From Corynebacterium sp. Marseille-P4321 (GTDB taxonomy: Bacteria > Actinomycetota > Actinomycetes > Mycobacteriales > Mycobacteriaceae): a stretch of 64,000 nt of DNA. Positions 1,596-55,860 of the stretch are shown piece by piece. The stretch's first letter is position 1. Each line of letters opens with the position of its first letter. The DNA lies in NCBI RefSeq assembly GCF_903645305.1, contig NZ_CAHJXO010000003.1, positions 1 through 64,000 of the forward strand, in the 5' to 3' direction. Below the pieces are notes generated by a model. The model worked only from the letters and a program-made list of their open reading frames with translations, was not told where the DNA came from and ran no database searches. A program made the translations under genes and the position numbers.

Positions 1596-2060
1596 ATGGC
1601 AGCTAAGACTCGGGCGTTAAGCGCCGTGAAGGATGTGCGACACGAGGTGCTCACGTATGAGCCGTCGCAGGACAATTTCGGCCAGCATGCGGCGATTGAG
1701 CTGGGTTTGAACGAAGACGGGGTGTTAAAGACGCTGGTTGTCGCGCACGAGCGGGAACTCGCGGTGTGTTGCGTGCCGGTCTCCGGTCACTTGTCGCTCA
1801 AGCACGCGGCGAAGGCGCTGGGTTGGAAGCGCGCGGAGATGGCGGAGCCTGCGAAGGCGCAGCGCGCCACGGGGTATGTGGTGGGCGGCATTTCGCCGCT
1901 CGGCATGTTGCAAAAATTGCAGGTGCTTATCGACGCTTCCGTGCGCGACCTTCCCACCATCACCGTCTCAGCCGGCCAACGCGGCCTTTCAGTGCAGCTT
2001 GCACCGGCCGACCTGGCAGAGCTCACGGGCGGCGAGTTCGCCGACATCAGCGCCCCATAA
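1596..2060 (+). CDS. ybaK: Cys-tRNA(Pro)/Cys-tRNA(Cys) deacylase, YbaK/EbsC type
   Basis: A 154-residue single-domain protein of the YbaK/ProRS-editing family, which hydrolyses mischarged Cys-tRNA(Pro). Typical family stretches are the early DVRHEVLTYEP strand, the central lysine-containing KTLVV segment, the YVVGGISPLG loop (about residues 92-101) and the VSAGQRGLSVQLAPADL C-terminal part. The ATG at 1596 is chosen because a TACGCT -10 element lies 6 bases upstream and longer in-frame starts run back into the sigH coding region. The 3' end overlaps the convergent SRAP gene by 14 bp. Confidence 0.9.
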   Translation: MAAKTRALSAVKDVRHEVLTYEPSQDNFGQHAAIELGLNEDGVLKTLVVAHERELAVCCVPVSGHLSLKHAAKALGWKRAEMAEPAKAQRATGYVVGGISPLGMLQKLQVLIDASVRDLPTITVSAGQRGLSVQLAPADLAELTGGEFADISAP

Positions 2061-2712
2061 GCCCAGTCAACTCCGCGTAATCGTTTCGCACGTTGCCTAC
2101 TTCCTGCGCGGCTTCGTTCCACACAAACTCGCCGGCGACCCGCGACGGGTGCACGAGCGCGAGCGCTTCATCAGGGGTGCCTTCCACCCAGGTGCGGATC
2201 TCGTCGCGCCGCAGGAAAAGCGGCAGACGGTGGTGCAGCCACGCCATGTTTTCGGTGGCTTCGGTGGTCACCATTGTCGTCGATAAGCGTTCAAGCCCTG
2301 TGCCCCACAATGCAGCCGCGTATAGCAAACCTTCCTGCGGGCGGACGTAGTACGGCTGCTTGCGGCCTTCTTCCTGCTTCCACTCGTAGTAGCCGTCGAG
2401 GACCATCAGCCCGCGGCGCAACTTGAAGGCGGAGCGGAACGAGGGCTTCTCCGCCACCGTCTCGCCGCGTGCGTTGAACAGCGGCGGGCCTTGTTCGTCT
2501 TTTTTCCATGCGGGGATAAGGCCCCACCGGGCGGCGTCGATACGCGCCTGCACGCCCTCGAACCTAATCAGCGGCACCTGCTGGGTCGGCGCGATGTTGT
2601 AGCGCGGCGGCGGGGTGCCGTCGGGTGCGTCGACCGATTCGACACCGGGGAGCGCGGCCACCTCGTCGTAGAGGTCTTGGCCGGTGGTGAAGAGAACAAA
2701 GCGTCCGCACAT
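2047..2712 (-). CDS. SOS response-associated peptidase (SRAP/HMCES/YedK family)
   Basis: A 221-residue SRAP-domain protein. The family forms a thiazolidine crosslink with abasic sites in single-stranded DNA and so shields them during replication. All key residues are visible: Cys2 (MCGRF), NIAPTQQ (about 39-45), the glutamate in GYYEW (about 108) and the histidine in HHRLPLFL (about 160). The ATG at 2712 must be the start because the catalytic Cys has to be residue 2. TAATAA lies 7 bases upstream, so the mRNA is probably leaderless. It is divergent from aroA with 18 bp between start codons. Confidence 0.93.
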
Positions 2713-2730
2713 ACCTCTATTATTATCCGC
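2713..2730. promoter_or_regulatory. 18-bp bidirectional promoter, SRAP gene and aroA
   Basis: The entire intergenic space is 18 bp. TATTAT (2718-2723, plus strand) ends 7 bases before the aroA ATG, and TAATAA (2725-2720, minus strand) ends 7 bases before the SRAP ATG, so the two -10 hexamers overlap. The -35 regions must lie inside the opposite coding sequence. Confidence 0.6.
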
Positions 2731-3999
2731 ATGACGCAAGCGTGGCCCGCCCCCTACTGCCCCACCCCGATCACCCACACGCAATCGGTGCCGGGTTCGA
2801 AGTCGATGACCAACCGCGCGTACGTGCTCGCGGCGCTCGCGGACGGGCCGTCGACCATTACCGGCGCGCTGCGCTCGCGCGACACGGACCTTATGGAGGG
2901 CGCACTGGAGGCCATGGGCGTGGGCTTCGCGCACGAGGGCGACACCATCACCGTCACCCCGGGCGAGCTGCGCGGCGCGGAGGTTGACTGCGGGTTGGCT
3001 GGCACGGTCATGCGGTTCGTGCCGCCGGTTGCGGCGTTCGCGCAGGGGCAGACGCTTTTCGACGGTGACACGCACGCCCGCACCCGCCCCATGGGCACCA
3101 TCCTCGAGGCACTGCGGGGCCTCGGCGTGAGCGTTGCCGGCGACGCGCTGCCGTTTACCGTGCACGGCACCGGCGAGGCCGAGGGCGGCGAAGTGGACAT
3201 CGACGCGTCCGGTTCCTCCCAATTCGTCTCCGGGTTGCTGCTATCCGCGCCGCGGTTCACGCGCGGGGTGCGCATCCGCCACACCGGTCGCACGCTGCCG
3301 TCTACACCGCACATCGAGATGACGGTAGCCATGCTCGCGGATGCCGGCGTGGAGGTGGACGCAGGCCGCGACAGCTGGGCCGTGGCACCCCAGCCGATCC
3401 GCGGGCGCCACTGGGCGATCGAGCCGGACCTTTCCAACGCCGCGCCGTTCCTCGCCGCAGCAGCAGTCACGGGCGGAGAGGTGCGCATCCCTGGCTGGCC
3501 CACGCGCACCACACAGCCGGGCGCAGCGATAATGAGCATCTTGGAGCGCATGGGCTGCGAAGCTGAGTTGGTCGCCGATGGCGCGGAGCACCAGTTGCGG
3601 GTGCGTGGGCCGCAGCCGGGCAGGCTGGAGGGCATCCGCATCGACATGGGTGACATCGGCGAGCTCACCCCCACCGTCGCGGCGGTCGCGGCGCTGGCCA
3701 GCACGCCCAGCGAGCTCACCGGCATCGCGCACCTGCGCGGGCACGAGACGGATAGGCTGGCGGCGCTCACGCGCGAGATCAACAACCTCGGCGGGGCATG
3801 CGAGGAGCTTTCCGACGGGCTCCGCATCCAACCCGCCACCCTCCGCGGCGGGCTGTGGCACAGCTACGACGACCACCGGATGGCCACCGCTGGCGCGATC
3901 ATAGGCCTGGTCACCGACGGCGTGGAGGTGGAGAACATCGACACAACGTCGAAGACGCTCCCAGGGTTTGCCGACATGTGGCAGGAGATGGTGCGTTAG
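2731..3999 (+). CDS. aroA: 3-phosphoshikimate 1-carboxyvinyltransferase (EPSP synthase)
   Basis: A 422-residue EPSP synthase, the sixth enzyme of the shikimate pathway, joining phosphoenolpyruvate to shikimate-3-phosphate. Visible signatures are the N-terminal [19 protein letters not shown] substrate-binding motif (about 22-40), GLAGTVMRF (about 89-97, the usual GNAGT motif with a changed first residue), [13 protein letters not shown] (about 160-172) and the C-terminal [12 protein letters not shown]. Length is normal. The start follows a leaderless-type promoter (TATTAT then 7 bases). The stop codon overlaps the rsgA GTG (TAGTG), so the two genes form a coupled operon. Confidence 0.96.
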
Positions 4000-6439: not shown

Positions 6440-9006
<2,567 letters not shown>

Positions 9007-9061: not shown

Positions 9062-9072
9062 GCTTATCGACG
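9062..9072 (-). repeat. Intergenic copy of the CGTCGATAAGC word
   Basis: One of 22 exact copies of the 11-mer in this window. It lies between secA and the hpf terminator, outside any coding region. Confidence 0.8.
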
Positions 9073-9931: not shown

Positions 9932-10558
9932 TCACGCCACACAGATCGCCACGCACGCGGCGACGTCAGCGCCGGAAGCGATGAGTAGCGCCGCGCTCGC
10001 CTGGAGGGTTGCGCCGGTGGTCACGACATCGTCGACAAGCACGAGCCTGCCCGCCGGCACCCCGCGCAGCCGCACCGCGCCAGAGAGGTTCGCCCTGCGT
10101 CCGGCTTCGTCGAGGCCCGACTGATCCGCCGTGCCGGCTTCGAGGCGAAGCACCGGGGCCACTTTTCGCCCGGTGGCGCGGCAGAGTTGCTCGACCGGGT
10201 CTCCCCCGCGCTCGCGCGCCGAGCGCTCCCGCGTCGGCGCGGGCACGAGCACCGCGTCGGCCGGGATCTCGCCGCGCGCCTCCAGGTACGCGAGCGCTGC
10301 GTCGAGCACCGCCCCCACGTGCGGCCGCACCGCCAAATGGCGACGTTCTTTCATCGCCAACACCACGCCCCGGTGCGCGCCCGCGTACGGCCCGAGCGCA
10401 AACACCGGCGCGTGCGCCGGGGTGTTCGGAAAGACCCGGCGCGGCGGCACGGCGAGCTCTCGCTTACACGCGGCGCACAGCATCTCGCCCGCCGCGCCGC
10501 AGCCGGCGCAGCGCTTCGGCAGCACCAGCTCGGATACCGCCGCGCTCCACCCCGTCAC
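9932..10558 (-). CDS. comF: ComF family protein (phosphoribosyltransferase fold)
   Basis: A protein of about 208 residues. It has an N-terminal zinc ribbon (CAGC then CAAC, about 18-37) and a C-terminal type I phosphoribosyltransferase domain with the PRPP loop LVLVDDVVTTGATL (about 175-188). ComF proteins are needed for DNA uptake in competent bacteria, but the family is universal in actinobacteria, where its role is unclear. It follows lpqB by 7 bp. The GTG at 10558 has a GGAAGG that lies too close; GTG at 10525 (SELVLPKRCAGC) is an equally reasonable start. Confidence 0.85.
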   Translation of the reverse strand: MTGWSAAVSELVLPKRCAGCGAAGEMLCAACKRELAVPPRRVFPNTPAHAPVFALGPYAGAHRGVVLAMKERRHLAVRPHVGAVLDAALAYLEARGEIPADAVLVPAPTRERSARERGGDPVEQLCRATGRKVAPVLRLEAGTADQSGLDEAGRRANLSGAVRLRGVPAGRLVLVDDVVTTGATLQASAALLIASGADVAACVAICVA

Positions 10559-10565
10559 CTTCCGA

Positions 10566-12266
10566 TCACCGCGCCACGATAGGCAGCGCGCGCACGCCTT
10601 CCAGGCCGGGCACCTCGCGCCAGATCGGGTTGTCTTCGCCGGAAGCGGGCACCTGCAGCACCGCGTTCGCGTCGGTGACATACACAGTGCTTGGCGACGC
10701 GGCCACCGCCACCACCGGCGCCGTAATATTGCCCGTGGACAGCGCAGCCATCGAGGAGCCGTCCTGCTCCACGCGCATGACGGGCAGATTGCTTGTCGAC
10801 GTACCCACGATGAGCGACCCGTCCGCCCGCCAATCCGCCGCAACCACGCTGCCGCCGAGCTCCTGCGCGTACTCGAGCACGTTGACAATCGAGCGCTCAC
10901 CGGACGCCGAGCGCTTCACGATGCCGGTGTACAAACTTCCGTCAATCACCATCACCGCCCGCGTGCCAGTGCGCGAGAGCCGCAACACCGAAATGTTGCC
11001 CTCCACGCCCTCGGGCAGCTCCGCCGTGACCTGCCCGGTGGTGATGTCGCCGGTGGCCGCGGACTGCACGGTTCGCATGATGCGCTGCCCGTCCGCAACC
11101 GTCCACACCGCGCCCGCGCCCTGCTCGAACGTGGGCCGCGTGAGGGTATCGGCGGAAAGCACCTCAGTTCCGCGGACGCCGAATTTACCCACCCACAGCG
11201 TGTCGGCGCCGTCGCCTGAGCGCACCGCCGCCCACTCGCCGCCGCCGGTGACGTCAGCGGAGGCGATGTCGTCCTCGCCGCCAAGGATGCCGTCCACCGC
11301 CGTGGATTCGCCGCCCTCGAGCCGCCTGATCTTGCCGTCAGAAAGGGCGTACAGCGTGGTTTCCCCGACCACCTCAACAAGAGGGCTCACGTCGGCGAAA
11401 TCGTCGGTGTCCAGGGCGGTGGCTCCGTCGATAAGCTGCTGCCCATCTACCTGCAAGTTGTAGGGCCCGGTGATGCCCGCCGACGCCAACGTCCACACCA
11501 CTTGCGCCGCGAAACGCGTGCGCGCGTGCTCGTCCACCCCGCCGAAGCCGGTGAAGGTGTAAGCACCGTCGTTAAAGCCGGTGAACGCCGCGCTCGACGG
11601 CAGCGCCCCAGTCAGGGCCGGGCGCAGGCGCTCCGACGGGCCCTCCATAAGCAGCGTAATCAGGCTCGAACCGAGCGTGTCGCGCTTCGAATGCACCCAA
11701 CGGCGGTCGGTGACCAGCTCCTTATCCTCCGCGTCAAAGAAATACAGGTTGTACGGCTGGTACTGGTTGCGCAGCTCCGTGCGCTCAATCACCACACCGG
11801 CGGGAAGGGAGGCGATGCGCCATTCGCCGTCGACAAGCTCAAGCTCGATGTTCGCCTCGTAGGTGCCGCGCTCCGGAGCGTAGGACCCGCCCGGCTGCAA
11901 CTTGCCCACCACCGAGCCGTGCACCGCAAACGTGCGCTCACCCACCGCCGCACCCGGAGTGGTGGTCACGCCGATGCTGTCCACCACCAGCACGTCCCCG
12001 CTCGGGTCCCAGGCGCCGGCAGCGGCTTCCGTGAGGAAGGAACGCGCCGTCTCGTAATCCGTATCCGGAATCGCCGCGGCGGCGTAGAAATCGCGTATGA
12101 GCAGGTCCGGCTCGCGCCCCTCCTGCGGCCCCACCGCGGGCATCTCAGTCTCCTGCGGGGTAAACGTGCGGATCACGTGCGGCGCCGAATTCGTAGGCAG
12201 CGACGCGCACCCGGTAAGCAACACCAGCGTCGACGCGACAGCGACAGTGGGTTTAGCGCGCTTCAT
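10566..12266 (-). CDS. lpqB: Lipoprotein LpqB, accessory of the MtrAB system
   Basis: A 566-residue lipoprotein with signal peptide and lipobox LLTGC (Cys about 20), a GerMN-like region (about 100-330) and a C-terminal beta-propeller-like half. In mycobacteria LpqB binds the sensor region of MtrB and tunes cell-wall hydrolase expression. The ATG at 12266 has AGGAGGT 6 bases upstream, placed inside the end of mtrB; the two genes overlap by 14 bp. The operon order mtrA-mtrB-lpqB-comF is the conserved actinobacterial one. Confidence 0.94.
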   Translation of the reverse strand: MKRAKPTVAVASTLVLLTGCASLPTNSAPHVIRTFTPQETEMPAVGPQEGREPDLLIRDFYAAAAIPDTDYETARSFLTEAAAGAWDPSGDVLVVDSIGVTTTPGAAVGERTFAVHGSVVGKLQPGGSYAPERGTYEANIELELVDGEWRIASLPAGVVIERTELRNQYQPYNLYFFDAEDKELVTDRRWVHSKRDTLGSSLITLLMEGPSERLRPALTGALPSSAAFTGFNDGAYTFTGFGGVDEHARTRFAAQVVWTLASAGITGPYNLQVDGQQLIDGATALDTDDFADVSPLVEVVGETTLYALSDGKIRRLEGGESTAVDGILGGEDDIASADVTGGGEWAAVRSGDGADTLWVGKFGVRGTEVLSADTLTRPTFEQGAGAVWTVADGQRIMRTVQSAATGDITTGQVTAELPEGVEGNISVLRLSRTGTRAVMVIDGSLYTGIVKRSASGERSIVNVLEYAQELGGSVVAADWRADGSLIVGTSTSNLPVMRVEQDGSSMAALSTGNITAPVVAVAASPSTVYVTDANAVLQVPASGEDNPIWREVPGLEGVRALPIVAR

Positions 12267-13854
12267 CGGGCACCTCCTGAGTGAGGGGCAATTGCTTATC
12301 GACGTCACCCTGGCCCGGCGCTTGCAACTCAAGCGGGGCGTTTTCGAAGCCAACCTCCGGGTGACGCGGGATGACCAGGCGGAACTGCGAGCCCACCCCG
12401 AACTCTCCGGCGGCGTCGAGGGTGCCGTTGTGCAACAACGCGTCCTCGCGCGCAATGGCCAGGCCAAGGCCAGTGCCGCCCGAGTGGCGCTTGCGCGACT
12501 TATCGGCGCGCCAGAAGCGGTTAAACACCATCTCGTCCTGTCCGGGCTTAAGCCCCACGCCGGAGTCGGTCACCGTGACCGCCACCGCCTCTTCGTTAGA
12601 GCGCATCACCACCGCCACTGGGTTGCCCTCCGAGTGGTCGATGGCATTGGCGATAAGGTTTCGCACCACCCGCTCAATGCGACGCGAATCTCCCTCGATG
12701 GTCTGCGGCTCGTCCGGCAGGTCGAAGGTGACCTCCACGTCGAGCTCGTCTGCCAGGTGCCGGGTTTGCTCCCAGGCGGATTCCACCGGCGTACGCGCGT
12801 CCATCGTCGTGGCGGACAGATCGGCCACGCCTGCGTCGTGGCGCGAGATCTCGAGCAGGTCGTTGAGCAGGGCCTCGAAGCGGTCCAGCTCCTCTGTCAT
12901 GAGCTGGGAGGCGCGCTTCGTCATCGGGTCCAGTTCGTCTTCGTTGCCGGCGATCATGTCCGCCGCCATGCGCACAGTAGTCAGCGGGGTACGCAGCTCG
13001 TGCGAAACATCGGAGGTGAACTGGCGCTGCAGGTCGCCGTACTCCTCCAAGTTCTGGATCTGCTTCGACAACGTGTCCGCCATGTCGTTGAACGAGATGG
13101 CCAGCACCGCCATCTCGTCCTCGCCTTCCACGGGCATGCGCTCACGCAAGTGGCCGGAGGCGAAGCGCTGCGCGGTGCGTGAGGCGGAACGCACCGGTGC
13201 CACAATCTGCTGGGAGGCCAGCCACGCGATGCCCACCAAAAGCACCACCACAATCACGGCCGCAGAGGCCAAAATGCCGCGCATCAACGCCACCGTGGAG
13301 GCCTCCGACTCCATGTTCATCACAAGGTAGAGCTGCAGATTCGGGATTTCCGCGTTCGTCGGCGTGCCCACAATCAGCGCGTCGTAGGCCGAACCGTCCG
13401 AGCGCTCCACCGTCGCGAACTGGTAGGCCACGTTGCCGTCGTCGACGTAGCTCTCGAGCCGCTCCGGGATCTGGTACGCCTCCGGCGAAGACGTCACCTG
13501 CCCACTCACCCCTTCAACGAGGAGCACCGGCTCGTAGAAGCTCGACGCGTCCGCGCTCTCCTGCGCGCGCTGCGTCAACCCGGCGCGCGCAGAGTTCAGG
13601 CGCGCCTGCAGCGAACCCGTCGTACCCGCGTTTGCAAGCTGGTACTCCACGTTCACGCGGGCGCGGTCGATTTCCACACTCGCCGTCTCAATTTTCGCCG
13701 CCGTGATGCGGTCGGTGACCACCGAAGCCAGGGCAAAACCCAGCACAAACATCACAACGGTGGACACGATGAGCACCGTGCCCACAAACCGCACCTGTAG
13801 CGAGGTGGACCAGGCGTGCGCGACGTGTTCCCGCGCGCGTTTTAGGGCACTCAG
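12253..13854 (-). CDS. mtrB: Sensor histidine kinase MtrB (probable CTG start)
   Basis: A transmembrane sensor kinase of 533 residues. In order: N-terminal membrane segment (about 22-45), extracellular sensor region, second membrane segment (about 190-210), HAMP domain, H-box FTSDVSHELRTPL (phosphorylated His), N-box RVVRNLIANAIDHS and G-boxes DSGVGL and GGTGLGLAIA. It phosphorylates MtrA. The first standard start is GTG at 13794, but the upstream frame stays open and encodes WSTSLQVRF, the conserved juxtamembrane start of MtrB. A CTG at 13854 lies 9 bases after GGAGG, which sits at the end of mtrA, and is the likeliest initiation codon. Confidence 0.93.
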   Translation of the reverse strand: MSALKRAREHVAHAWSTSLQVRFVGTVLIVSTVVMFVLGFALASVVTDRITAAKIETASVEIDRARVNVEYQLANAGTTGSLQARLNSARAGLTQRAQESADASSFYEPVLLVEGVSGQVTSSPEAYQIPERLESYVDDGNVAYQFATVERSDGSAYDALIVGTPTNAEIPNLQLYLVMNMESEASTVALMRGILASAAVIVVVLLVGIAWLASQQIVAPVRSASRTAQRFASGHLRERMPVEGEDEMAVLAISFNDMADTLSKQIQNLEEYGDLQRQFTSDVSHELRTPLTTVRMAADMIAGNEDELDPMTKRASQLMTEELDRFEALLNDLLEISRHDAGVADLSATTMDARTPVESAWEQTRHLADELDVEVTFDLPDEPQTIEGDSRRIERVVRNLIANAIDHSEGNPVAVVMRSNEEAVAVTVTDSGVGLKPGQDEMVFNRFWRADKSRKRHSGGTGLGLAIAREDALLHNGTLDAAGEFGVGSQFRLVIPRHPEVGFENAPLELQAPGQGDVDKQLPLTQEVPDEAR

Positions 13855-14567: not shown

Positions 14568-15191
14568 TTAGTTCTCGGGCGCACGCTGACGCTGCGCCTG
14601 CACTTCCTGCATGATAACCGCCGCGTCGACGCTTCTCACCCAGCGGCTCGCCCAGGACGCTTCCGCAAGATCCACGTAAGCCTGGAACGTCGCCGCCTGC
14701 AACGCACGGTCGCGCTCGTAGCGGTCGCGGGCCCTCGACTCGTCGGTCGCCTCGCGCCTCACGGCGCGCTCGCGAGCCACCTCGGGCGCAGTATCGACAA
14801 GCACCTGCAGGTCCGGCTTCGGCAGCCCCAGCCTGCCGAACTCCAGCTCCGCCACCCACCCCGCGGCCGCCTCGTCCCCCGTGCGTGCCGAAGTGTACGC
14901 AGCGTTCGACGCAACATAACGGTCGAGGATGAGGATGCGGTCGTCGGTGTCCACGTACTCGTCGAGAAGCTCCTTCGCCCCATGCCTATCCAGCGCGAAC
15001 AGCGTCGCCATAGCGAACGCCGAATCCGTCACATCCCCCATCCGCCCATGCAGCGCGTCGTGGGCGAGCTGCGCGTGGATCGAATCCTCGTAGCGCGGAA
15101 ACGACAACGTCTGCGCGCCGAGTTCATCCTGAATAGCGGTGACGAGTGTGTGCTTGCCCGCCCCGTCAATGCCCTCAACTGCGATAATCAT
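14568..15191 (-). CDS. tmk: Thymidylate kinase
   Basis: A 207-residue dTMP kinase that makes dTDP for DNA synthesis. The P-loop is GIDGAGKHT (about 7-15) with His in the position often held by Ser/Thr, similar to the actinobacterial GxGAGKRT form. The DRY motif (LDRYVASNAAY, about 90) and the LID region rich in Arg (SRARDRYERDR, about 158-168) are present. It starts 5 bp after the DUF4259 gene and ends 22 bp before mtrA, so transcription through all of them is likely. Confidence 0.94.
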   Translation of the reverse strand: MIIAVEGIDGAGKHTLVTAIQDELGAQTLSFPRYEDSIHAQLAHDALHGRMGDVTDSAFAMATLFALDRHGAKELLDEYVDTDDRILILDRYVASNAAYTSARTGDEAAAGWVAELEFGRLGLPKPDLQVLVDTAPEVARERAVRREATDESRARDRYERDRALQAATFQAYVDLAEASWASRWVRSVDAAVIMQEVQAQRQRAPEN

Positions 15192-17822: not shown

Positions 17823-18833
17823 CTATTCGCCGGGCTCGGTAAGTGCGGCCGCCGCGTAGGCGCGGGTGGTCAGGCGCAGCGCCTGGGCTGCCGCGTCAGA
17901 GGACCCCACGCCTTCGCCCACTGTCTCCACCCGCGCATCGGGCGCGAGGAGACCGTACGCGTCGCCGCAGGCCCACACAATGGGTTTCAAACCTACCAGC
18001 TGAGGTGGGCCGTCGAGGTACGGGTCGCGGAAGATGTCGTCGGCCGCCGCAGCCGCCGGCGCGGCCTCACGCGCCGCCTGCAGCGCGCCTGCCAACTCGT
18101 CCGCGGGAAGGTAGCCGGAGGCGAGCCCGCGCGATGTCCACAGCGCCGCTGCGACCTGCGCCACCGAGTCTCCGAATGCGCCGGCTCCCGCGTGCACCAC
18201 CCGCGCGCCCTGGGCGTACAGGCGCAGCTGGCGGGCCGCGTTGACGGTCTCATCGCGGTCCGGGGCGAGAGACTCGACCTCCGCATCCACCTCGTCGGCG
18301 AGCAGTTCAAGGCGCTCCGCGACCACCTCGACGGGGCGCGCCAGCACGCGCAACACCGCCGCGGCCACCGCCGCTGCGCGCGCTGGTGAGGCCCCCATGG
18401 CGGTGGGTAGGGCGGGGATTGTGATGGTTGCCGACGGAGCGTCGTCAAGCAGTGGCCCCTCCCGCGGCCCCGCAAGCACCGTGGAGGCCCCGCGCTGCGC
18501 TGCGTTGATGAGCGCGCGCGAGTCCTCGTCGCGGCCCGCCTCGGCGCCCAGCACGACCACGACGTCGAGCGGCCCGACGAAACCGGGCAGTGTCCGCGCC
18601 ACCATAACCGGCACCTCCAACGGCGCGAGCGCCGAGACTGCAGCTTGGACCGCAGCAAGGGAGATATGGTCGGTGGCGAGCACCACCACGCTTCGCACGT
18701 CCGCACCCTGCAGCGGCGCGAGGTGCCCCGCCGCCGAAGCCACGGCACGAAGCTGAGCGCCCTCGTGCGCGACATCGAAAAAGCGCACGGCATCCGGGTC
18801 GTGCCCCGCGCCGTGCGTATAACTGCCATCCAT
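17823..18833 (-). CDS. TobH-like/SIS-fold sugar isomerase-like protein (Rv3256c-type)
   Basis: A 336-residue Ala-rich protein always found between manA and pmmA in mycolata. It resembles the phosphoglucose/phosphomannose isomerase fold in its pattern of alternating strands and helices (ADVRSVVVLATDH about 43-55, LDVVVVLGAEAG about 88-99, ARVVHAGAGAFGDS about 205). I cannot see a complete catalytic set. No signal peptide is present, so it acts in the cytoplasm. It lies 11 bp after pmmA. The role in mannose metabolism is inferred from context only. Confidence 0.7.
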   Translation of the reverse strand: MDGSYTHGAGHDPDAVRFFDVAHEGAQLRAVASAAGHLAPLQGADVRSVVVLATDHISLAAVQAAVSALAPLEVPVMVARTLPGFVGPLDVVVVLGAEAGRDEDSRALINAAQRGASTVLAGPREGPLLDDAPSATITIPALPTAMGASPARAAAVAAAVLRVLARPVEVVAERLELLADEVDAEVESLAPDRDETVNAARQLRLYAQGARVVHAGAGAFGDSVAQVAAALWTSRGLASGYLPADELAGALQAAREAAPAAAAADDIFRDPYLDGPPQLVGLKPIVWACGDAYGLLAPDARVETVGEGVGSSDAAAQALRLTTRAYAAAALTEPGE

Positions 18834-27038: not shown

Positions 27039-27049
27039 CGTCGATAAGC
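27039..27049 (+). repeat. Intergenic copy of the CGTCGATAAGC word
   Basis: An exact 11-mer copy lies between the M20 gene and abgT, about 38 bases upstream of the abgT -10 hexamer. No coding sequence covers it. Confidence 0.8.
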
Positions 27050-39527: not shown

Positions 39528-39553
39528 GGGGAAAAGCTTATTGCTTATCGACG
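39528..39553 (-). promoter_or_regulatory. birA promoter with a CGTCGATAAGC word upstream
   Basis: On the minus strand TAAGCT (39540-39535) is followed by 7 bases and the ATG. An exact CGTCGATAAGC copy (39553-39543) lies immediately upstream, in the spacer region of the promoter, with a second TAAGC formed by the -10 itself. Confidence 0.5.
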
Positions 39554-42103: not shown

Positions 42104-42699
42104 TGCCGCGGCTGGTGCTCGCGTCGCAGTCCCCGTCGCGACGCATGCTGCTTGAACAGGGCGGCGTGGATCCCGTCTGCCACCCGGCGGACGTTGACGA
42201 GGACGCGCTGCTCGCTTCGCTTTCCCACGTCTCCCCCTCCGAGCGCGTAACTGCCCTGGCCCGCGCGAAGGCGGAGGCGGTTGCCCCGCGCTACCCGGAT
42301 GACGTGGTGGTGGGCTGCGATTCAATGCTGCTTCTCGACGGGCACCTGCTTGGCAAACCCCACACCGCCGAAGAAACGGTTCGCCGGTGGAAGTCGCAAC
42401 GCGGCCAAACGGCCCACTTGGTCACCGGCCACGCGGCCGTGTACCACGGCACGTGGGTGACCGGGCCGGTCGAAACCGCGATTCGTTTCGGGGACGTCTC
42501 CGACGCGGACATCGATGCTTATGCGGCTTCCGGCGAGCCGCTCGAGTGCGCCGGCGCGTTCACGCTCGAGGCGCTAGGCAGTTGGTTCATCGATTCCGTT
42601 GATGGCGATCCGACCAGCGTAATTGGCCTTTCGATGCCGTTTTTACGCAAGGCGCTCTACTCGTTTGGGCTTGAAGCGTCCGCGTTCTGGCGTGCGTAG
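42103..42699 (+). CDS. maf: Maf family nucleotide pyrophosphatase
   Basis: A 198-residue Maf protein that removes non-canonical or modified nucleoside triphosphates. Signature residues are LASQSPSRRMLL (about 5-16), DVVVGCDSMLLLDG (about 65-78), GKPHTAEE and the C-terminal DGDPTSVIGLSM. The gene is translationally coupled to accE, an arrangement conserved in mycolata. Confidence 0.94.
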   Translation: MPRLVLASQSPSRRMLLEQGGVDPVCHPADVDEDALLASLSHVSPSERVTALARAKAEAVAPRYPDDVVVGCDSMLLLDGHLLGKPHTAEETVRRWKSQRGQTAHLVTGHAAVYHGTWVTGPVETAIRFGDVSDADIDAYAASGEPLECAGAFTLEALGSWFIDSVDGDPTSVIGLSMPFLRKALYSFGLEASAFWRA

Positions 42700-43709: not shown

Positions 43710-44468
43710 ATGCTCCGCAATCGCCGCCGCGCCGCCCGCGCTCTGCTTGCCCTGCCACTCGTGTTCGCCACCGCCGCCTGCGACCTCCCGGGCTCCGGCG
43801 GGAATGACACCGCCGCCGCCCCCGAGGTGTTCACCAGCATCGCTGCCCCCGGCGACAGCGAGACAGACGGCCAGGACACAGACAGCAAGGATGGCAACAA
43901 GGAGGACGCCGACGGCAAGGCCAAGTTCGGCGAGGATAAGGATGCCACGAGCCCGGAACGGACCAGCTCGAAGGCGCCGCGGCCGCGCGACTGCGCCTCC
44001 CTGCCGAAGGATCCGCGCGACATGTACCCGGACGGCTCCGCCCCGGGGCGCATGCCGGCGGTGAGTAACGGCGATTACAACTTCTGGATCGACGACATCG
44101 AGAACGCCTACGATCCGTGCGCCCCTATCAGCTGGATCGTATTTCGCGGGCAGCTTGGCGACGTCAACGGCGTGGCCGGTACAGCAGGTTCCATCACTGA
44201 TGGCATCGCGATCTACGTTGACGGCGTGCCTGACGGGGAAATGCGCATCTTTGGCCGCATTGACGACGTCTACCTCGACGGCGACGACACCTTGCGCTTC
44301 AGGTTCAGCGAGCGTACCCGCTCCACCGCGGAGGGGTTCACCGGCAACTACGACGTCACGCTCGAAGCTGAGGGCGGCCGCGTCACCGCAGTCTCAGGCG
44401 ACCAGGGCGCGTTCTACGACAGGTGGGACGACGGTACCAGTGCGTACATGTTGGGCACGTATGACTAG
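43710..44468 (+). CDS. LppP/LprE family lipoprotein
   Basis: A 252-residue lipoprotein. The signal peptide (MLRNRRRAARALLALPLVFA) ends at the lipobox TAAC (Cys about 24). A charged Asp/Lys-rich linker (about 25-85) precedes a folded domain (about 90-252) with YNFWIDDIENAYDPCAPISW (about 122-141), two cysteines that may pair, and beta-rich segments. This domain matches the LppP/LprE lipoprotein family of mycolata, of unknown function. The start at 43710 fits a leaderless promoter better than upstream ATG codons. Confidence 0.8.
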   Translation: MLRNRRRAARALLALPLVFATAACDLPGSGGNDTAAAPEVFTSIAAPGDSETDGQDTDSKDGNKEDADGKAKFGEDKDATSPERTSSKAPRPRDCASLPKDPRDMYPDGSAPGRMPAVSNGDYNFWIDDIENAYDPCAPISWIVFRGQLGDVNGVAGTAGSITDGIAIYVDGVPDGEMRIFGRIDDVYLDGDDTLRFRFSERTRSTAEGFTGNYDVTLEAEGGRVTAVSGDQGAFYDRWDDGTSAYMLGTYD

Positions 44469-44475: not shown

Positions 44476-44486
44476 CGTCGATAAGC
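44476..44486 (+). repeat. Intergenic copy of the CGTCGATAAGC word
   Basis: An exact 11-mer lies between two convergent genes, directly after the T-run of the minus-strand terminator at 44487-44512. Confidence 0.8.
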
Positions 44487-45887: not shown

Positions 45888-46751
45888 GTGGGCATCGAGT
45901 TCGACGACAACCCGCAGTTTCAGCAGTACGCGCACCCGGAGAAGTTTGTGTCGGCGGCGTGGCTGTCGGCGCGGCTCGGTATGCCGGGGTTGAAGGTGGT
46001 TGAAAGCGACGAGGACGCGTTCCTCTACGACATCGGCCACATCCCGGGGGCGGTGCGCATCGATTGGCGCACGGATTTGAATGATCCGCTGGTGCGCGAC
46101 TTCATCGACGGGGAGGCGTTTGCGGAGTTGATGCGTTCGCGCGGCATTTCGCGCGAGGACACGGTGGTGGTGTACGGCGATCGTTCCAATTGGTGGGCGG
46201 CGTACACGGCGTGGGTGTTTGAGTTGTTCGGGCATCCGGATGTGCGTCTGCTTGACGGGGGCCGCGACGCGTGGATGGGTGAGGAGCGCGACACGTCGTT
46301 TATGGTGCCGGAGTACCCGGCGTCGGATTATCCGGTGGTTGAGCGCAAGGATTCGCCCTTCCGCACGTTTGCTTCGGAGTTGTTGGAGGAAAAGCCTGCG
46401 CAGCTTATCGACGCTCGCCCGTCCGACCAGTTCGCCGGCATCGAGCCGGAGCCGGACGAGCCCGGGGTGCGCACGCTGCGCTACGGCCACATCCCTGGCG
46501 CGGTGAACGTGACGTGGGGCCGTTCGGTCTTTCCGAATTCGCGGTTCCGCCCGCTGGAGGACATCAAGGCGATTTACGCCGATTTCGACCCGTCGGCGCG
46601 CACGGTGGTCTACTGCCAGCTCGGCGAGAGCTCCTCGCACACGTGGTTCGTGCTGAACCACATTTTGGGTTTTGAGGACATTTCGCTTTACGACGGTTCC
46701 TGGGCCGAGTGGGGCAACTTAGTGCGCGTACCCGTGGAGAAGGGCGAATAA
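45888..46751 (+). CDS. sseA: Thiosulfate/3-mercaptopyruvate sulfurtransferase
   Basis: A 287-residue protein with two rhodanese domains. The first (about 18-135) lacks the active cysteine; the second has the catalytic loop YCQLGESS (about 238-245), with the active Cys. The family moves sulfane sulfur from thiosulfate or mercaptopyruvate to cyanide or thiol acceptors. The GTG at 45888 has GGAGG 8 bases upstream and is preferred over the earlier ATG and GTG. It precedes accBC, an order conserved in corynebacteria and mycobacteria. Confidence 0.92.
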   Translation: MGIEFDDNPQFQQYAHPEKFVSAAWLSARLGMPGLKVVESDEDAFLYDIGHIPGAVRIDWRTDLNDPLVRDFIDGEAFAELMRSRGISREDTVVVYGDRSNWWAAYTAWVFELFGHPDVRLLDGGRDAWMGEERDTSFMVPEYPASDYPVVERKDSPFRTFASELLEEKPAQLIDARPSDQFAGIEPEPDEPGVRTLRYGHIPGAVNVTWGRSVFPNSRFRPLEDIKAIYADFDPSARTVVYCQLGESSSHTWFVLNHILGFEDISLYDGSWAEWGNLVRVPVEKGE

Positions 46752-46884: not shown

Positions 46885-48723
46885 GTGGCTTCCACCCAGC
46901 CGGCAACTGCTACAACCGCTTCGAGCCTGCCCACTTCCCTGACCAAGGTTTTGGTGGCTAACCGTGGCGAGATCGCGGTGCGCGTGATCCGCGCGGCGAA
47001 GGATGAAGGTATTGCCTCCGTTGCGGTGTACGCCGAGCCGGACGCGGATGCGCCGTTTGTGCGTTTGGCGGACGAGGCGTTCGCCCTCGGCGGCACAACT
47101 GCGGCTGAGAGCTACTTGGACATGGACAAGGTGATCGCGGCGGCCGAGGCGTCGGGGGCGGATGCGATCCACCCCGGCTATGGCTTCCTGTCCGAGAACG
47201 CGGAGTTCGCCCAGAAGGTTATTGACGCTGGCCTAACGTGGATCGGGCCGTCGCCGGAGGCGATCGCTGCGCTGGGCGACAAGGTCACTGCCCGCCACAT
47301 CGCTGAAGCCGCGGACGCGCCGATGGCGCCGGGCACAAAGGATCCGGTCGCGGACGCCGAGGAGGTGCTCGCGTTCGCGGACGAGCACGGGCTGCCGGTG
47401 GCGATCAAGGCTGCGTTCGGCGGCGGCGGCCGCGGCATGAAGGTCGCGTATTCGCGTGAGGAGATCCCGGAGCTGTACGAGTCTGCCACGCGCGAGGCGA
47501 CCGCTGCGTTCGGCCGCGGCGAGTGCTTCGTGGAGCGTTACTTGGACCGCGCGCGCCACGTCGAGGCGCAGGTGCTAGCCGACATGCACGGCAACGTGGT
47601 GGTGATGGGCACGCGTGACTGCTCGCTGCAGCGCCGTTTTCAGAAGCTTGTGGAGGAAGCCCCGGCCCCCTTCCTCACCGACGAGCAGCGCGAGCGCATC
47701 CACGCCTCCGCGAAGGCGATTTGCCGCGAGGCGGGTTACTTCGGCGCGGGCACGGTGGAGTACTTGGTGGGTTCCGACGGGCTGATTTCTTTCCTGGAGG
47801 TCAATACCCGCCTGCAGGTTGAGCACCCGGTCACCGAAGTGACCGCTGGTGTGGATTTGGTGCGCCAGCAGTTCCGCATCGCGCGCGGGGAGCAATTGCT
47901 TATCGACGAAGACCCGGCCCCGCGCGGCCACGCCATCGAGTTTCGCATCAACGGCGAGGACGCTTCCGCCAACTTTATGCCGGCGCCGGGCACGATCACG
48001 GCGTACTCGGAGCCCGCGGGCCCGGGTGTGCGCGTGGATTCCGGCGTGGAGGCTGGTTCGGTGATCGGCGGGCAGTTCGACTCGATGTTGGCGAAGCTGA
48101 TCGTCTACGGCGAGACCCGCGAGGAGGCGATCCAGCGCGCCCGCCGCGCACTGGACGAGTACGCGGTGTCCGGCATTCCGACGGTCATCCCGTTCCACCG
48201 CGCCGTGTTGGACGACCCGGCTTTCGTGGGCAACGGTATGGGCCATGAAGCTGGCTTCGACGTGTACACGCGCTGGATCGAGGAAGAGTGGGCGGGCCTG
48301 CCTGAGGGGGCCGTCGCAGACGCCCCAGATGCCCCAGATGCTACAGACGCTGCAGACTCAGAAGACACCACCGCACCTCAGCGCCGCATCTTCGCCGTGG
48401 AAGTTAACGGCCGCCGTTTCGAGGTGGCGCTGCCGGAGGAACTCGTCGCAGGCGGCGCGGCTCGCCGCAAGCCGAAGAAGCGTCGCGCGGCCGGCAAGGT
48501 GGCCGCCTCCGGCGACGCGGTCGCGGCGCCGATGCAGGGCTCCGTGGTGAAGGTCAACGTCGCTGAGGGCGACGAGGTGGCCGAGGGCGACGTGCTCGTC
48601 GTGCTGGAAGCGATGAAGATGGAAAACCCGGTCAAGGCTCACAAGGCTGGCACCGTTACCGGCCTTGCCGTGGAGACCGGTGCCCAGGTGAATAAGGCGG
48701 CTGTGCTTATGGAGCTGAAGTAG
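46885..48723 (+). CDS. accBC: Acyl-CoA carboxylase biotin carboxylase/BCCP alpha subunit
   Basis: A 612-residue fused protein: biotin carboxylase (about 20-465), with [16 protein letters not shown], the ATP-grasp loop GGGGRGMK (about 175) and [14 protein letters not shown] (about 306-319), then a linker and a biotinyl domain (about 535-612) with EAMKMEN, the Lys that BirA biotinylates. It supplies carboxybiotin to AccD subunits for malonyl-CoA and methylmalonyl-CoA. The linker (about 478-495) carries Asp-Ala-Pro/Thr repeats encoded by near-tandem DNA. GTG start with AAAGGACGGG upstream. Confidence 0.96.
48316..48366 (+). repeat. Degenerate Asp-Ala repeat in the accBC linker
   Basis: Units of GCAGACGCC/CCAGATGCC/CTACAGACG type encode alternating Asp and Ala residues between the carboxylase and biotinyl domains. 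The repeat is imperfect and in frame. Confidence 0.7.
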
Positions 48724-50152: not shown

Positions 50153-53100
50153 CTAGCTGATCACAACCACCAGGTCGCCGCCTTCAACCTTGGTGGGCTG
50201 GGTGAAGGCGACGCGCTCGATCACGCCGTCCTTCGTCGCGGAAATGGCGGCCTCCATCTTCATCGCCTCGATGGACGCGACCGGGTCGCCAGCCTTGACC
50301 TCGTCGCCCTCCTTCACCGTGACGGTCACGGCGCCCGCGAACGGTGCGGCGACGTGGCCCGGGTTGGAAGAATCGGCCTTCTCCACCTCGGCGACGGAGG
50401 ACTCGGCGGACTCGTCGCGCACCACCATCGGGCGCACCTGGCCGTTGACGGTGAGGATAACTTGGCGCATGCCCTTCTCGTCCGGCTCGCCCACGGCGTC
50501 GAGGCTGACCACCAGCGGCGGGCGGTTCTCGTCGATCTCGCCGTACCAAATCATCGTCTCCTCGCCCTCTTCCAGACCGTAGAAGAACGCCTTGTCGCCC
50601 AGCTGGTCGGTCACACCGTAGGCGCGCAGGTGCTCCTGGTACTCGGCGTACTGCTTCGGGAACAGCAGCTGATCCAGCGCCGCGCGACGGGCGGTGTGCT
50701 CATCGCTTTCCAGATCCGGTGCAAGCTCCTCAGGCACCTGCACGGTGTGGTCGACCTCGGAGCGGTCCTCCAGCGCCTTGTCGCGCAGCAGCGGCCAGCC
50801 GCCCGGAGGGGTGCCCAGCTCGCCCTGCAGGAAGCCGATGACGGACTCGGGGATGTCGTATTTGCGCGGGTTCTCCGCGAACTCCTCCGGGCTCACGCCC
50901 TGCCCCACGAGCTGCAGGGCCAGGTCGCCGACCACCTTCGACGACGGGGTGACCTTCGTCGGGCGGCCGAGGATTTCGTTCACACCGGCGTAGTAGTCCT
51001 CGATGAGCTCGAAGCGGTCCTCCAGGCCCAGCGCCTTCGCCTGGGTGCGCAGGTTAGACAGCTGGCCGCCGGGGATCTCGTGCTTGTACACGCGGCCGGT
51101 CGGGCCCGGAATACCGGACTCGAACGGGGCGTAGACCTGGCGCACGGCCTCCCAGTACGGCTCCATGTCGAAGACGGCCTGCAGGTCGATGCCGGTGTCA
51201 CGCTCCGTGTTCGCGAACGCTGCCACCAGCGCCGACATGGACGGCTGGGAGGTGGTGCCAGCCAGCGGCGCGGAGGCCACGTCGACCACGTCCGCGCCCG
51301 CGTTCGCGGCCGCCAGGTAGGTGGCCAGCTGGCCACCTGCGGTGTCGTGGGTGTGCACGTGCACCGGCAGGTCGAAGCGCTCACGCAGCGCGCTGACCAG
51401 CTTCGCCGCCGCCGCCGGGCGCATCAAACCGGCCATGTCTTTAATGGCCAGCACGTGGGCGCCCGCCTCGACGATCTCATCGGCGAGGTTTAGGTAGTAG
51501 TCCAGCGTGTAGAGGTCCTCGTTCGGGTCCAGCAGGTTGCCGGAGTACGCCATGGCGACCTCGGCGACAGTGGTGCCGGTTTCCAGCACCGCGTCGATGG
51601 CCGGGCGCATCTGGGAGACGTCGTTAAGCGCGTCGAAGATACGGAAGATGTCGATGCCGGAGGTCGCGGCCTCACGCACGAACGCCTTCGTCACCGAGTC
51701 CGGGTACGGGGTGTAGCCCACGGTGTTGCGGCCGCGCAGCAGCATCTGGATGTTCACGTTCGGCATCGCCTCGCGCAGCTCGTCCAGGCGCATCCACGGC
51801 GACTCGTGGAGGAAGCGCATGCCCACGTCGTAAGTCGCGCCGCCCCACGCCTCCACCGAAGTCAGCTCCGGGGTGAGGTGGCCGACGTGCTTCGCGGCCG
51901 CAACCAGGGTGTTGGTGCGGACGCGGGTGGCCAGAAGCGACTGGTGCGCGTCGCGGAACGTCGTCTCGGTAACACCAAGCGCGGTCTGGTTGCGCAGCTT
52001 CTCGGCCCACTTCTTCGGGCCGAGTTCCAACAGCTCGTCGCGGGAGCCGCGCGGCAGCTCGCCGTAGTCGTTCTTCGGCAGCTTCTTCGACGGCTGGATG
52101 TTCGTCGGGCGCTCGCCGTTCGGCTTGTTCACCGTCACGGAAGCGAGGTACTCGAGGATCTTGCCCGCGTCGTCCGCGGCAGCCGGCGCCTCGAGCAGGT
52201 GCGGGTGATCCGCGATGAAGCCGGTGTTGATGCGCTCGTTGCGGAACTCCGGCTCAGAAAGCAGTGCGCGCAGGAAGCCGATGTTGGTGGACAGGCCGGT
52301 GACGGAGAACTCGTTGAGGGCACGCAGCGCACGGTCCACGGCCACCTGGAAGTTGCGGCCGCGGCAGGTCATCTTCACCAGCAGCGAGTCGAAGTTCGGG
52401 GTGATGATGGTGCCCACGGCCACGGAGCCGTCGAGGCGCACTCCGGCGCCGCCCGGGGAGCGGTAGCCGGTGACCACGCCGGAGTCGGGCCTGAAGCCGT
52501 TCGCCGGGTCCTCGGTGGTGATGCGGCATTGCAGCGCAGCGCCGTTGACCTCGATGAGGTCCTGCTCCAGGTGCACGTCGGCAAGCTTGGCGCCGGCGGC
52601 GATGTACATCTGGTTCTTCACGATGTCGATGCCGGTGACCTCCTCGGTCACCGTGTGCTCCACCTGCACGCGCGGGTTCATCTCGATGAACACGTGGTTG
52701 CCCTGCTCGTCGACGAGGAACTCGACGGTGCCCGCACCCTCGTAGTTGATCTCCTTGCAGAAATTCACCGCGTCCTGGCAGATGCGCTGGCGCTGCTCCT
52801 CGGTGATGTGCTGCGCGGGCGCGATCTCGACGACCTTCTGGTGGCGGCGCTGCACGGAGCAGTCGCGCTCAAACAGGTGCACCACGTTGCCGTGGGAATC
52901 GGCCATGATCTGCACCTCGATGTGCTGCGGCTTGATCACCGCGCGCTCGATGTAGACATGGGGGTCGCCGAAGGCGGCTTCCGCCTCGCGGGAAGCTTCA
53001 GCAGCAAGCTTTTCGACGTCCTCTTGCTTCTCAATAAATCGCATGCCGCGACCGCCACCACCGGCGACAGCCTTGACGAAGACGGGGAACTCGAAGTCCT

Positions 53101-53581: not shown

Positions 53582-53673
53582 GCGGGGGTTCCTTTCCGGA
53601 AAAAGGGCAAAAATCAACAGACAGTATTTTATGCCATCGCAGGTGAGTTTTTTGCGATTTGGTAATACAACAG

Positions 53674-53714
53674 AAAAGGCGGGCGTCGATAAGCAATGTG
53701 CTCTCGACGCCCGC
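53674..53714 (-). terminator. Rho-independent terminator of the prpDBC operon, built from the word
   Basis: An 11-bp inverted repeat (GCGGGCGTCGA 53679-53689; TCGACGCCCGC 53704-53714) encloses a 14-base loop. On the minus strand TTTT follows (53677-53674). An exact CGTCGATAAGC copy at 53684-53694 forms part of one arm and the loop. Confidence 0.8.
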
Positions 53715-53727
53715 GAAGCAGCAGACC

Positions 53728-54873
53728 TTACTTCTCCACGTGGCGCTCGTCCGGGCCGTTGTAGGCGGACAGCGGGCGGATCAGCGAGTTGTTCTCAAAC
53801 TGCTCGATGATGTGTGCGGTCCAGCCGGTGATGCGGCTCATGACGAACAGCGGGGTGAAGAACTCGATGTCGAAACCCAGGATGTAGTAGGCCGGGCCGG
53901 ACGGGAAGTCCAGGTTCGGGCGGATGTTGATCGAGGTGTTGTCGTGCATGGTCTTCGCCATGATGTCGTACATTTCGACCCACTTCTGGGCGTCCTTCTC
54001 CGGGTGCTCGGCGGCGAGCTTCTTGAAGGCGGCCTCCATCGTCGGCACGCGCGAATCGCCCTTCTTGTACACGCGGTGGCCGAAGCCCATCACGAGCTCC
54101 TTGTTCTTCAGCTTGTTCAGGCACCACTCCTCGGCCTTCGCCGGGTCGCCGATCTCCTCCATGTGGTGCATCACGAACTCGTTCGCGCCGCCGTGCAGCG
54201 GGCCCTTCAGCGCGCCGATGGCGCCGGTGATGGCGGACCAGCCGTCGGACATCGTGGACGCGATGGTGCGGGCGGTGAAGGTGGAGGCGTTAAAGGAGTG
54301 CTCGGCGTAGAGGATCATGGTCTTCTCGAACGCCTCGATGTCGGACGGGATGTTCGCCGGGGACTTCTCGTCGTCGCCGAAGACCATCCAGAGGAAGTTC
54401 TCGCTAAAGCCCTTCTCCTTGCTCGGCGCGATGTACTCCTTACCCTGGCGGCGGCGGATGTCGGTGGCCACGATGGTGGGCAGCTTTGCCAGCAGCTTGC
54501 GGCCGATGCCGCGCAGGTGGTCCGAATCCGGGGTGAACTTCTCCGGGTCTTCCGTGCCCAGGTAGGACACTGCGGTGCGCAGCACGTCCATCGGGTGGCA
54601 GTCCTTCGGCATGAAGTTGATGATCTGGATGAGTTCCTCGTCGATGTCGCGGTTGGCCATGCAGCCGCCGCGGAACTCCGCGAGCTGCTCCTCGTTCGGC
54701 AGCTCGCCGTTCCACAGCAGGTACGCGACTTCTTCGAACGTGCAGTTCTCGGCGAGCTCCTGCACCGGGTAGCCGCGGTAGAGCAGCGAGTTGGTCTCCG
54801 GGTTCACCTTGGAAACTGCGGTGTAGTCGGCGACAACGCCGTTAAGGCCCTTGCGGATTTCCTGGTCAGACAT
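53728..54873 (-). CDS. prpC: 2-methylcitrate synthase
   Basis: A 381-residue citrate-synthase-fold enzyme joining propionyl-CoA and oxaloacetate. Active-site histidines and Asp appear in YAEHSFNASTFTAR (about 191-204), LHGGANEFVM (about 226) and GFGHRVYKKGDSR (about 264-276). Context with prpB and prpD identifies it as the methylcitrate enzyme rather than the main citrate synthase, though such enzymes often accept acetyl-CoA as well. AAAGGAG precedes the ATG. Last gene of the prpDBC operon. Confidence 0.93.
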   Translation of the reverse strand: MSDQEIRKGLNGVVADYTAVSKVNPETNSLLYRGYPVQELAENCTFEEVAYLLWNGELPNEEQLAEFRGGCMANRDIDEELIQIINFMPKDCHPMDVLRTAVSYLGTEDPEKFTPDSDHLRGIGRKLLAKLPTIVATDIRRRQGKEYIAPSKEKGFSENFLWMVFGDDEKSPANIPSDIEAFEKTMILYAEHSFNASTFTARTIASTMSDGWSAITGAIGALKGPLHGGANEFVMHHMEEIGDPAKAEEWCLNKLKNKELVMGFGHRVYKKGDSRVPTMEAAFKKLAAEHPEKDAQKWVEMYDIMAKTMHDNTSINIRPNLDFPSGPAYYILGFDIEFFTPLFVMSRITGWTAHIIEQFENNSLIRPLSAYNGPDERHVEK

Positions 54874-54912
54874 GATGTCTCCTTTGAGTTTCTGCGGGTA
54901 GACGCGATGCGT

Positions 54913-55860
54913 CTACTGTGAATCGGTTTGGAAGGTCTGGGAGTAGGTGTCCTTGGAGTAGGTGAACACCGACTGGTCGAACTGGTTGTACTCGTCGTAG
55001 CGGACGAGCTCGTAGAGGCGGGAGCGGTGCTGCATCTTGTCCAGCCACGGCTCCTGCGTGCCGGTTTTCGCGATATCGCGCAGCATCTCCTCGGTCTGGC
55101 CCATGGCGAGGCGGAAGGTAGTCACCGGCCAGATGACGGCGTTGTAGCCGAGCTCCTCCAGGCGCGGGGCCGGGATGAGGTCTGTCTTGCCGAACTCGGT
55201 CATGTTCGCGAGCAGCGGCGTATCGACGGCGGCGCGGAACTTCTCAAAGTCCGCCTCGGAGTAGAGCGCCTCGGTGAAGATGAGGTCCGCACCCGCGTCG
55301 GCGTACGCCTTCGCGCGCTCGATGGCCTCGTCGATGCCCTCGATGCCGGCGGCGTCGGTGCGGGCGCAGATGACGAAGTCGTCGTCGTGGCGCTCGCGCA
55401 CCGCGGCGGTGATGCGGCGGACCATCAGATCGCGCGGCACGACTTCCTTACCGTCCAGGTGGCCGCAGCGCTTCGGGTTCACCTGGTCCTCCAAGTGCAG
55501 CGCGGCGAGACCGGCGGCCTCAAACTCGGCTACGGTGCGGGCTGCGGACATGGGTTCGCCAAAGCCCGTGTCAGCGTCGATAAGCACTGGCAAATTCGTC
55601 GCGCGGGCAATCTGGCCGCCGCGCGCCGCGACCTCGGTCAGTGTGGTCAGGCCGATGTCCGGCAGGCCCAAATCGTTGGCCAGCACCGCGCCGGAGACGT
55701 ACACTCCCTCAAACCCATCAGCCGATTCACGGCTGATGTCCTCGATCAGGCGCGCGGTGAGCGGGTTAAACGCGCCGGGCAGCTTGGTGATGGTGTCGCT
55801 GGTCAGCGATTCGCGCAGTGCCCTGCGGCGTTCGTTCGGGGTTTTGTCGGGTGCGAACAT
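54913..55860 (-). CDS. prpB: Methylisocitrate lyase
   Basis: A 315-residue isocitrate lyase superfamily enzyme cleaving 2-methylisocitrate to succinate and pyruvate. The catalytic loop KRCGHLDGKEVV (about 128-139), metal-site IDADTGFGE (about 94-102) and ARTDAAGIEG (about 165) are present. A CGTCGATAAGC word is embedded at 55575-55585 where LID is encoded. The ATG shares a base with the prpD stop (TAATG), and GGGAGG lies upstream. Confidence 0.95.
   Translation of the reverse strand: MFAPDKTPNERRRALRESLTSDTITKLPGAFNPLTARLIEDISRESADGFEGVYVSGAVLANDLGLPDIGLTTLTEVAARGGQIARATNLPVLIDADTGFGEPMSAARTVAEFEAAGLAALHLEDQVNPKRCGHLDGKEVVPRDLMVRRITAAVRERHDDDFVICARTDAAGIEGIDEAIERAKAYADAGADLIFTEALYSEADFEKFRAAVDTPLLANMTEFGKTDLIPAPRLEELGYNAVIWPVTTFRLAMGQTEEMLRDIAKTGTQEPWLDKMQHRSRLYELVRYDEYNQFDQSVFTYSKDTYSQTFQTDSQ

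Follow-up and report, generated by a model that had tools for sequence, protein, structure and literature searches.

In a 64,000-nucleotide stretch of Corynebacterium sp. Marseille-P4321 (contig NZ_CAHJXO010000003.1, positions 1 to 64,000, hereafter the window) the 11-base word CGTCGATAAGC is repeated 22 times. We found that this word is the commonest spelling, in its own genome, of the split motif C(G/A)TCG-NN-AAGC. Our analysis suggests with good probability that the motif is a putative DNA uptake sequence (DUS) which marks Corynebacterium DNA as own and which exists in dialects, and the word is likely read by the Tad/Com machinery. We favour this reading because the word is abundant, sharply defined in its core, balanced between strands, split into dialects, conserved and scarce in foreign DNA, a combination like that of the neisserial DUS and the pasteurellacean uptake signal sequence (USS); known words mark own DNA in this way in Neisseria and Haemophilus. 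The initial annotation, which was made from the sequence alone, knew of no such word in Corynebacterium. Likewise, our search of open-access titles and abstract beginnings, a scope outside which preprints and most subscription papers lie, returned no paper on the CGTCG-NN-AAGC word or on a Corynebacterium uptake sequence.

Abundance and architecture of the word

All 22 exact copies were recovered where the initial annotation had located them, 11 on the plus and 11 on the minus strand, and its estimate that chance would yield about 0.03 copies agrees with the 0.025 obtained for the window in a first-order Markov simulation (40 runs). Allowing up to one mismatch raised the count to 47, compared with a mean of 1.17 and a maximum of 4 in 100 dinucleotide shuffles. 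Among the near-copies named before, those at 5066 and 8358 were correct, and the one placed at 62284 begins at 62283. Heuristic gene calls put 6 of the 22 copies between genes, where at least five intergenic spots had been reported. The 11-base word is real, but its extent had been understated, as the wider motif is CGTCG-NN-AAGC with 52 copies in the window against 1.5 expected under the Markov model.

Over the whole genome (2,394,565 bases in 4 contigs) CGTCGATAAGC occurred 686 times, 343 forward and 343 reverse, whereas the same word read backwards occurred once (0 forward, 1 reverse). The core CGTCG-NN-AAGC reached 1,710 copies against 103 for its reversed control. The genome-wide count that had been proposed as a check did not refute the word, since both forms greatly exceed the reversed control and also surpass what the Markov model predicts. 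Motif specificity was examined in 458 kilobases (kb) of this genome, namely the window and sampled stretches minus the two island stretches L117 and L118 described below. In this sample the core was found 362 times against 12 expected and ranked first among all patterns of five bases, a two-base gap and four bases, the next non-overlapping pattern having 154 copies. All 16 centre dinucleotides exceeded expectation, AT most strongly with 150 against 0.5. Single changes at the nine fixed bases occurred at 0.1-3 times expectation; the 27 single-base variants, summed by hand, gave about 300 copies against about 270 expected, and spacers of 0, 1, 3, 4, 5 or 6 bases instead of 2 gave 4-20 copies. 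The nine fixed bases and the two-base gap are strict in this genome. Their flank is weaker and reads, in 39 intergenic exact copies, roughly G.AG upstream and aaA..G.CC downstream.

The exact word lies on the plus strand of the window at 2278..2288, 6783..6793, 6846..6856, 11426..11436, 19789..19799, 27039..27049, 37256..37266, 38849..38859, 44476..44486, 53684..53694 and 55575..55585, and on the minus strand at 1925..1935, 9062..9072, 12294..12304, 19747..19757, 24600..24610, 25607..25617, 35650..35660, 39543..39553, 40575..40585, 46403..46413 and 47898..47908; the copies at 19747 and 19789 form an inverted pair. The remaining core words differ in their centre. CGTCGAAAAGC was found on the minus strand at 3054..3064, 28951..28961, 33352..33362, 53008..53018 and 60089..60099, as were CGTCGGAAAGC at 3807..3817, CGTCGGGAAGC at 21101..21111 and CGTCGTAAAGC at 46685..46695. 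On the plus strand lie CGTCGTCAAGC (18440..18450 and 31815..31825) and CGTCGTTAAGC (51619..51629 and 60570..60580). Both strands carry CGTCGCCAAGC (plus at 7380..7390 and 60013..60023; minus at 10689..10699, 44153..44163 and 62813..62823), CGTCGACAAGC (plus at 10030..10040, 11828..11838, 20438..20448 and 22224..22234; minus at 10791..10801), CGTCGAGAAGC (plus at 14960..14970; minus at 34905..34915, 37029..37039, 40461..40471 and 42330..42340) and CGTCGGCAAGC (plus at 52576..52586; minus at 30260..30270 and 41655..41665).

Dialects, conservation and foreign DNA

Both core forms, CGTCG-NN-AAGC and CATCG-NN-AAGC, were counted over the same 151 Corynebacterium genomes, which were classed by thresholds of our own choice (200 copies, and for intermediate genomes either 1.8 times control or 150 copies of the CATCG form). 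The CGTCG class comprised 103 genomes with 280-1,891 copies (median 1,090) and the CATCG class 10 genomes with 213-1,337 copies; 6 genomes were intermediate and 32 at background. Nine of the ten CATCG genomes held 26-97 copies of the CGTCG form. The exact word ranged from 0 to 679 copies in the 150 further genomes of the genus. The count in related species suggested by the initial annotation showed a core common across much of Corynebacterium. The centre bases vary between species: in tad-region loci of C. tuberculostearicum and a close relative the commonest core was CGTCGGCAAGC (10 of 34 skeleton sites).

A count of the exact word in 50 named genomes gave 384 copies in C. pilosum, 322 in C. 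pollutisoli, 317 in C. haemomassiliense, 270 in C. lubricantis, 217 in C. silvaticum, 200 in C. gallinarum, 128 in C. aurimucosum, 120 in C. vitaeruminis, 104 in C. minutissimum, 97 in C. tuberculostearicum and 85 in C. striatum. C. macginleyi had 4 copies against 94 of GCATCGGCAAGC, C. phocae 2 against 19 and C. meridianum 5 against 1, and the exact word was found twice in C. dentalis, once in C. falsenii and not at all in C. glyciniphilum. Named genomes of Dietzia, Gordonia, Rhodococcus and relatives, Williamsia, Nocardia, Tsukamurella, Antrihabitans, Kitasatospora and one Mycobacterium held 0-7 copies. Among 249 genomes of the order, counted for the CGTCG form only, three Corynebacterium stood out; in the 246 genomes outside the genus the CGTCG core reached, by our reading, at most 1.7 times the reversed control (highest count 418 against 246).

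In a tree of a single helicase protein with 60 rows, to which we assigned the word states, words filled one large clade, with gaps, as well as the basal C. vitaeruminis, and the sister clade was without words. The CATCG form was nested inside the word-bearing clade. At least 5 changes of presence or absence and 3 changes of dialect are needed on this tree. Its nearest named rows fit the genus Corynebacterium that the initial annotation had assumed. In five genomes (G041, G062, G120, G128 and G131) the CGTCG core stood at about two to four times control, and their words are possibly decaying after selection was lost. No clear alternative word was seen in 40-116 kb each of G014, G132, G041, G062, G131 and G120. 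Among genomes poor in the exact word, enrichment pointed to GGCATCGGCAAG(C) in G006 as well as G053 and to CGTCGGAAAG(C) in G048, after which the two core forms were counted across the genus. Besides, G146, which is without the putative uptake word, repeats GGCAGGCCAAAAC at three loci (L054, L055 and L070), either another word or an ordinary repeat, and G111 holds AGCACTAGTGC, with a palindromic centre, four times in 40 kb (L048 and L049).

The words are conserved between relatives. Across nine close locus pairs, read both ways and with two loci used in two pairs, 138 of 168 core words were intact in the partner, compared with fractions of 0.15-0.69 for random nine-base sites. In the same alignments words were kept above random sites in each of the nine pairs; a tenth pair was without words.

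Foreign DNA was poor in the motif. The chromosome sample of the Marseille-P4321 genome carries 7.5 core words per 10 kb. The stretch at 250-270 kb of its contig C2 (L117) has six, all beyond 13.1 kb and none in the first 13.1 kb. A gene run without core words (L117:1-12971, C2:250001-262971) lies in this 20-kb stretch, whose guanine-plus-cytosine (GC) content is low (0.577); it encodes helicase-like, DrmA/DrmB-like and cytosine methyltransferase-like proteins resembling what we take to be a DISARM island. At 350-370 kb of the same contig (L118) no core word was found in the 15.3 kb from 3.6 to 18.9 kb, which hold an erm(X)-like gene. In this segment (L118:3569-18870, C2:353569-368870) the erm(X)-like gene matches plasmids of Corynebacterium and others at 92-95%. 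In 50.0 of the 51.4 kb of the C. striatum plasmid pTP10 there were 7 core words, all between 5.8 and 13.1 kb (L220:5777-13119); the part that holds five of them also carries mshC among other genes and may be a captured chromosomal piece. Three other Corynebacterium plasmids held 2 (50.0 of 56.0 kb), 2 (34.6 kb) and 0 (31.0 kb) core words, and the phages P1201 (50.0 of 70.6 kb) and BFK20 (42.0 of 43.0 kb) one each.

Competence genes and alternative explanations

In the Marseille-P4321 genome comEA adjoins comEC, dprA is present, and a Tad/Flp locus encodes a DUF4244 Flp pilin, a TadE/G-like protein, two T2SSF proteins, a T2SSE ATPase and a TadE-like protein without a Pfam match. We propose that a pilus-borne DNA receptor, perhaps a small Tad pseudopilin, would bind the word on free DNA and that the pilus would pull the bound DNA across the mycomembrane towards ComEA/ComEC. 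Once taken up, fragments would recombine and in this way propagate the word and preserve it, and dialects would arise when the receptor changes.

Several observations weigh against an uptake sequence read by this machinery. First, comEC was found in 151 of 151 Corynebacterium genomes and hence in word-free genomes too. A T2SSE match was present in 148 of the 151, Tad loci occur both with and without words, and matches to flp, tadE and tadF are kept in six word-free or word-poor genomes (G014, G132, C. meridianum, G041, G062 and G131). Presence or absence of comEC or Tad was therefore ruled out as the determinant. An ATPase score of at least 159 bits was reached in 105 of 108 word genomes and 5 of 31 background genomes (5 and 1 without a score dropped), and a longer comEC frame was seen in 15 of 112 word genomes and 27 of 32 background genomes (G001 dropped). 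Neither difference is independent support, since both mostly follow one clade. A difference in a ComEC nuclease domain, which the frame lengths had suggested, was also considered and rejected, as Pfam finds no nuclease domain in two short and two long ComEC proteins; the single additional match, in one of the long proteins, is DUF4131. The residue scan found no Flp, TadE, TadF or ComEA position that separates the dialects. With 18 rows compared, a single ComEC column does so, perhaps by chance; the ComEA and ComEC scan excluded G137, whose frames looked broken. Moreover, our search of open-access titles and abstract beginnings yielded no paper that deals with transformation of a Corynebacterium.

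Further points of this kind concern the word itself. The lower GC of the sampled plasmids and phages (0.52-0.59) accounts for part of their shortage of words, and two of the seven words of pTP10 lie inside tetAB. The dialects are largely, not wholly, exclusive, because G142 carries 1,337 CATCG and 352 CGTCG copies and as many as 159 CATCG copies occur in genomes of the CGTCG class (G011, control 9). G142 is perhaps a genome in dialect transition. Single-base variants numbered 250 against 203 expected in G148 and 268 against 171 in G006, and the edge of the pattern is therefore less sharp there than in the Marseille-P4321 genome. Finally, even spacing was unclear in G148 (variance/mean 0.92; 22 of 348 controls as low) and G006 (1.01; 122 of 500 controls as low). 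Evenness, strong as it is in the Marseille-P4321 genome, may therefore not be a general property.

The nearest alternative is a chromosome-organisation word, through whose sites an intracellular DNA-binding protein would structure, anchor or segregate the chromosome. The initial annotation had compared the spread, strand balance and length of the word with both uptake and chromosome-organisation words, a comparison that our results support. The spacing of the core in the Marseille-P4321 genome speaks for chromosome organisation: in 5-kb bins, L117 and L118 excluded, the variance/mean was 0.45, and none of 216 control 7-mers and none of 1,000 uniform placements was as low (7-mers served as controls since no other split pattern was frequent enough). 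With the island stretches included, variance/mean was 2.32/3.72, about 0.62. The conservation between relatives would fit a chromosomal role as well. However, the evenness was not clearly reproduced in G148 and G006, and in 32 of the 151 Corynebacterium genomes the word does not rise above background. A dialect change at hundreds to more than 1,000 sites would also be harder to explain for an essential internal protein. The plot of strand bias against replication that had been suggested was made for these two single-contig genomes, with 20 stretches of 20 kb each and arms defined by GC skew. No strand preference of the core was detected, leading and lagging counts being 113 and 111 in G148 and 81 and 101 in G006 (p 0.16). 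This result speaks against a polar chromosome word of the kind of FtsK-orienting polar sequences (KOPS) or Chi, and we rejected the reading as a polar replication word. Because of the lacking strand bias, the dialects and the scarcity in foreign DNA we prefer an uptake word, which fits better of the two, and consider chromosome organisation improbable.

A Chi-like recombination or repair signal would stop a nuclease at DNA ends and thereby spare the cell's DNA but not foreign DNA, which would be degraded. The shortage of words in plasmids, phages and islands would fit such a signal too, as would conservation. Known Chi sites, however, are strand-biased, whereas the word shows no bias between replication arms. 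Nine fixed bases with an internal gap also exceed in length the Chi words known to us. We regard this explanation as quite unlikely.

The position of the word relative to genes bears on the two remaining alternatives. In 498 kb of the Marseille-P4321 genome with heuristic gene calls there were 152 exact copies, 72 on the plus and 80 on the minus strand. A transcription terminator or another element acting at the RNA level would agree with their higher density between genes (6.15 per 10 kb, compared with 2.60 inside them) and with the inverted pairs that some words form. However, 39 of the 152 copies are intergenic and called genes contain the other 113, of which 62 run antisense and 51 sense; among close pairs of core words each inverted order occurs 8 times and the direct order 3 times. 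An RNA-level role is thus very unlikely. The coding copies fall mainly into three frames, LID in antisense (59), VDK (38) and SIS (13), as would be expected if conserved tripeptides, LID and VDK, together with ordinary codon bias produced the word as a coding artefact. Residue frequency, however, predicts 32 LID tripeptides where 96 were counted, and codon usage predicts 6.9 in the codons of the word where 61 were counted. Correspondingly, VDK in these codons was found 38 times against 2.9 expected and SIS 13 times against 0.03, and the other five orders of the same residues were much rarer (19-38 for L, I and D against 96 for LID; 10-24 for V, D and K against 54 for VDK). With codon choice and tripeptide numbers this far above expectation, and with copies denser between genes, the coding artefact that the initial annotation had named as a possible refutation is ruled out for practical purposes.

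Relation to known uptake systems and significance

The putative uptake sequence of Corynebacterium shares several traits with known systems. Small neisserial genomes are described as carrying DUS in hundreds to thousands of copies, with dialects by lineage around a shared core and some family members without DUS (PMC3630211), and neisserial mobile elements as showing an atypical DUS distribution (PMC7371117). As far as these descriptions go, copy number, shared core, lineage dialects, relatives without the word and an unusual distribution in mobile elements are alike in Corynebacterium. The sequence itself, the split with two free bases and the actinobacterial host with its Tad/Flp locus are different. 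Moreover, the neisserial receptor is ComP, whereas the Corynebacterium word is known from sequence alone. Karlin et al. (cited in PMC1939737) reported an even spacing of the pasteurellacean USS, for which a minor pilin was predicted as receptor (PMC12616744). Following these accounts, the Corynebacterium word is similarly abundant and short with a less conserved flank, and evenly spaced in the Marseille-P4321 genome; it differs in sequence, in phylum and in an evenness that is not clear in two other genomes. In Micrococcus luteus, also an actinobacterium, tad genes were reported to be required for transformation (PMC4322843). The abstract of that study names no uptake word, whereas the Corynebacterium system is known from word and genes alone.

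We consider it probable that the word represents a third, independently evolved uptake-sequence system, in a mycomembrane-bearing Gram-positive genus. Own DNA would be recognised via a Tad/Flp competence pilus, and the single-base switch from CGTCG to CATCG would act as a gene-exchange barrier between sister lineages, for example C. tuberculostearicum and C. macginleyi. Self-DNA recognition in transformation would then extend beyond two Gram-negative families, and much of the genus Corynebacterium, which includes skin commensals and industrial species, would be or would have been naturally competent. The word would provide a handle for transforming species that resist transformation, barriers to gene exchange could be explained as dialects, and foreign islands could be found as gaps in the words. 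The 113 word-bearing genomes with their natural dialect changes form a set for finding the receptor. Furthermore, in the known systems DNA has to cross an outer membrane, a shared trait that would be widened to include the mycomembrane.

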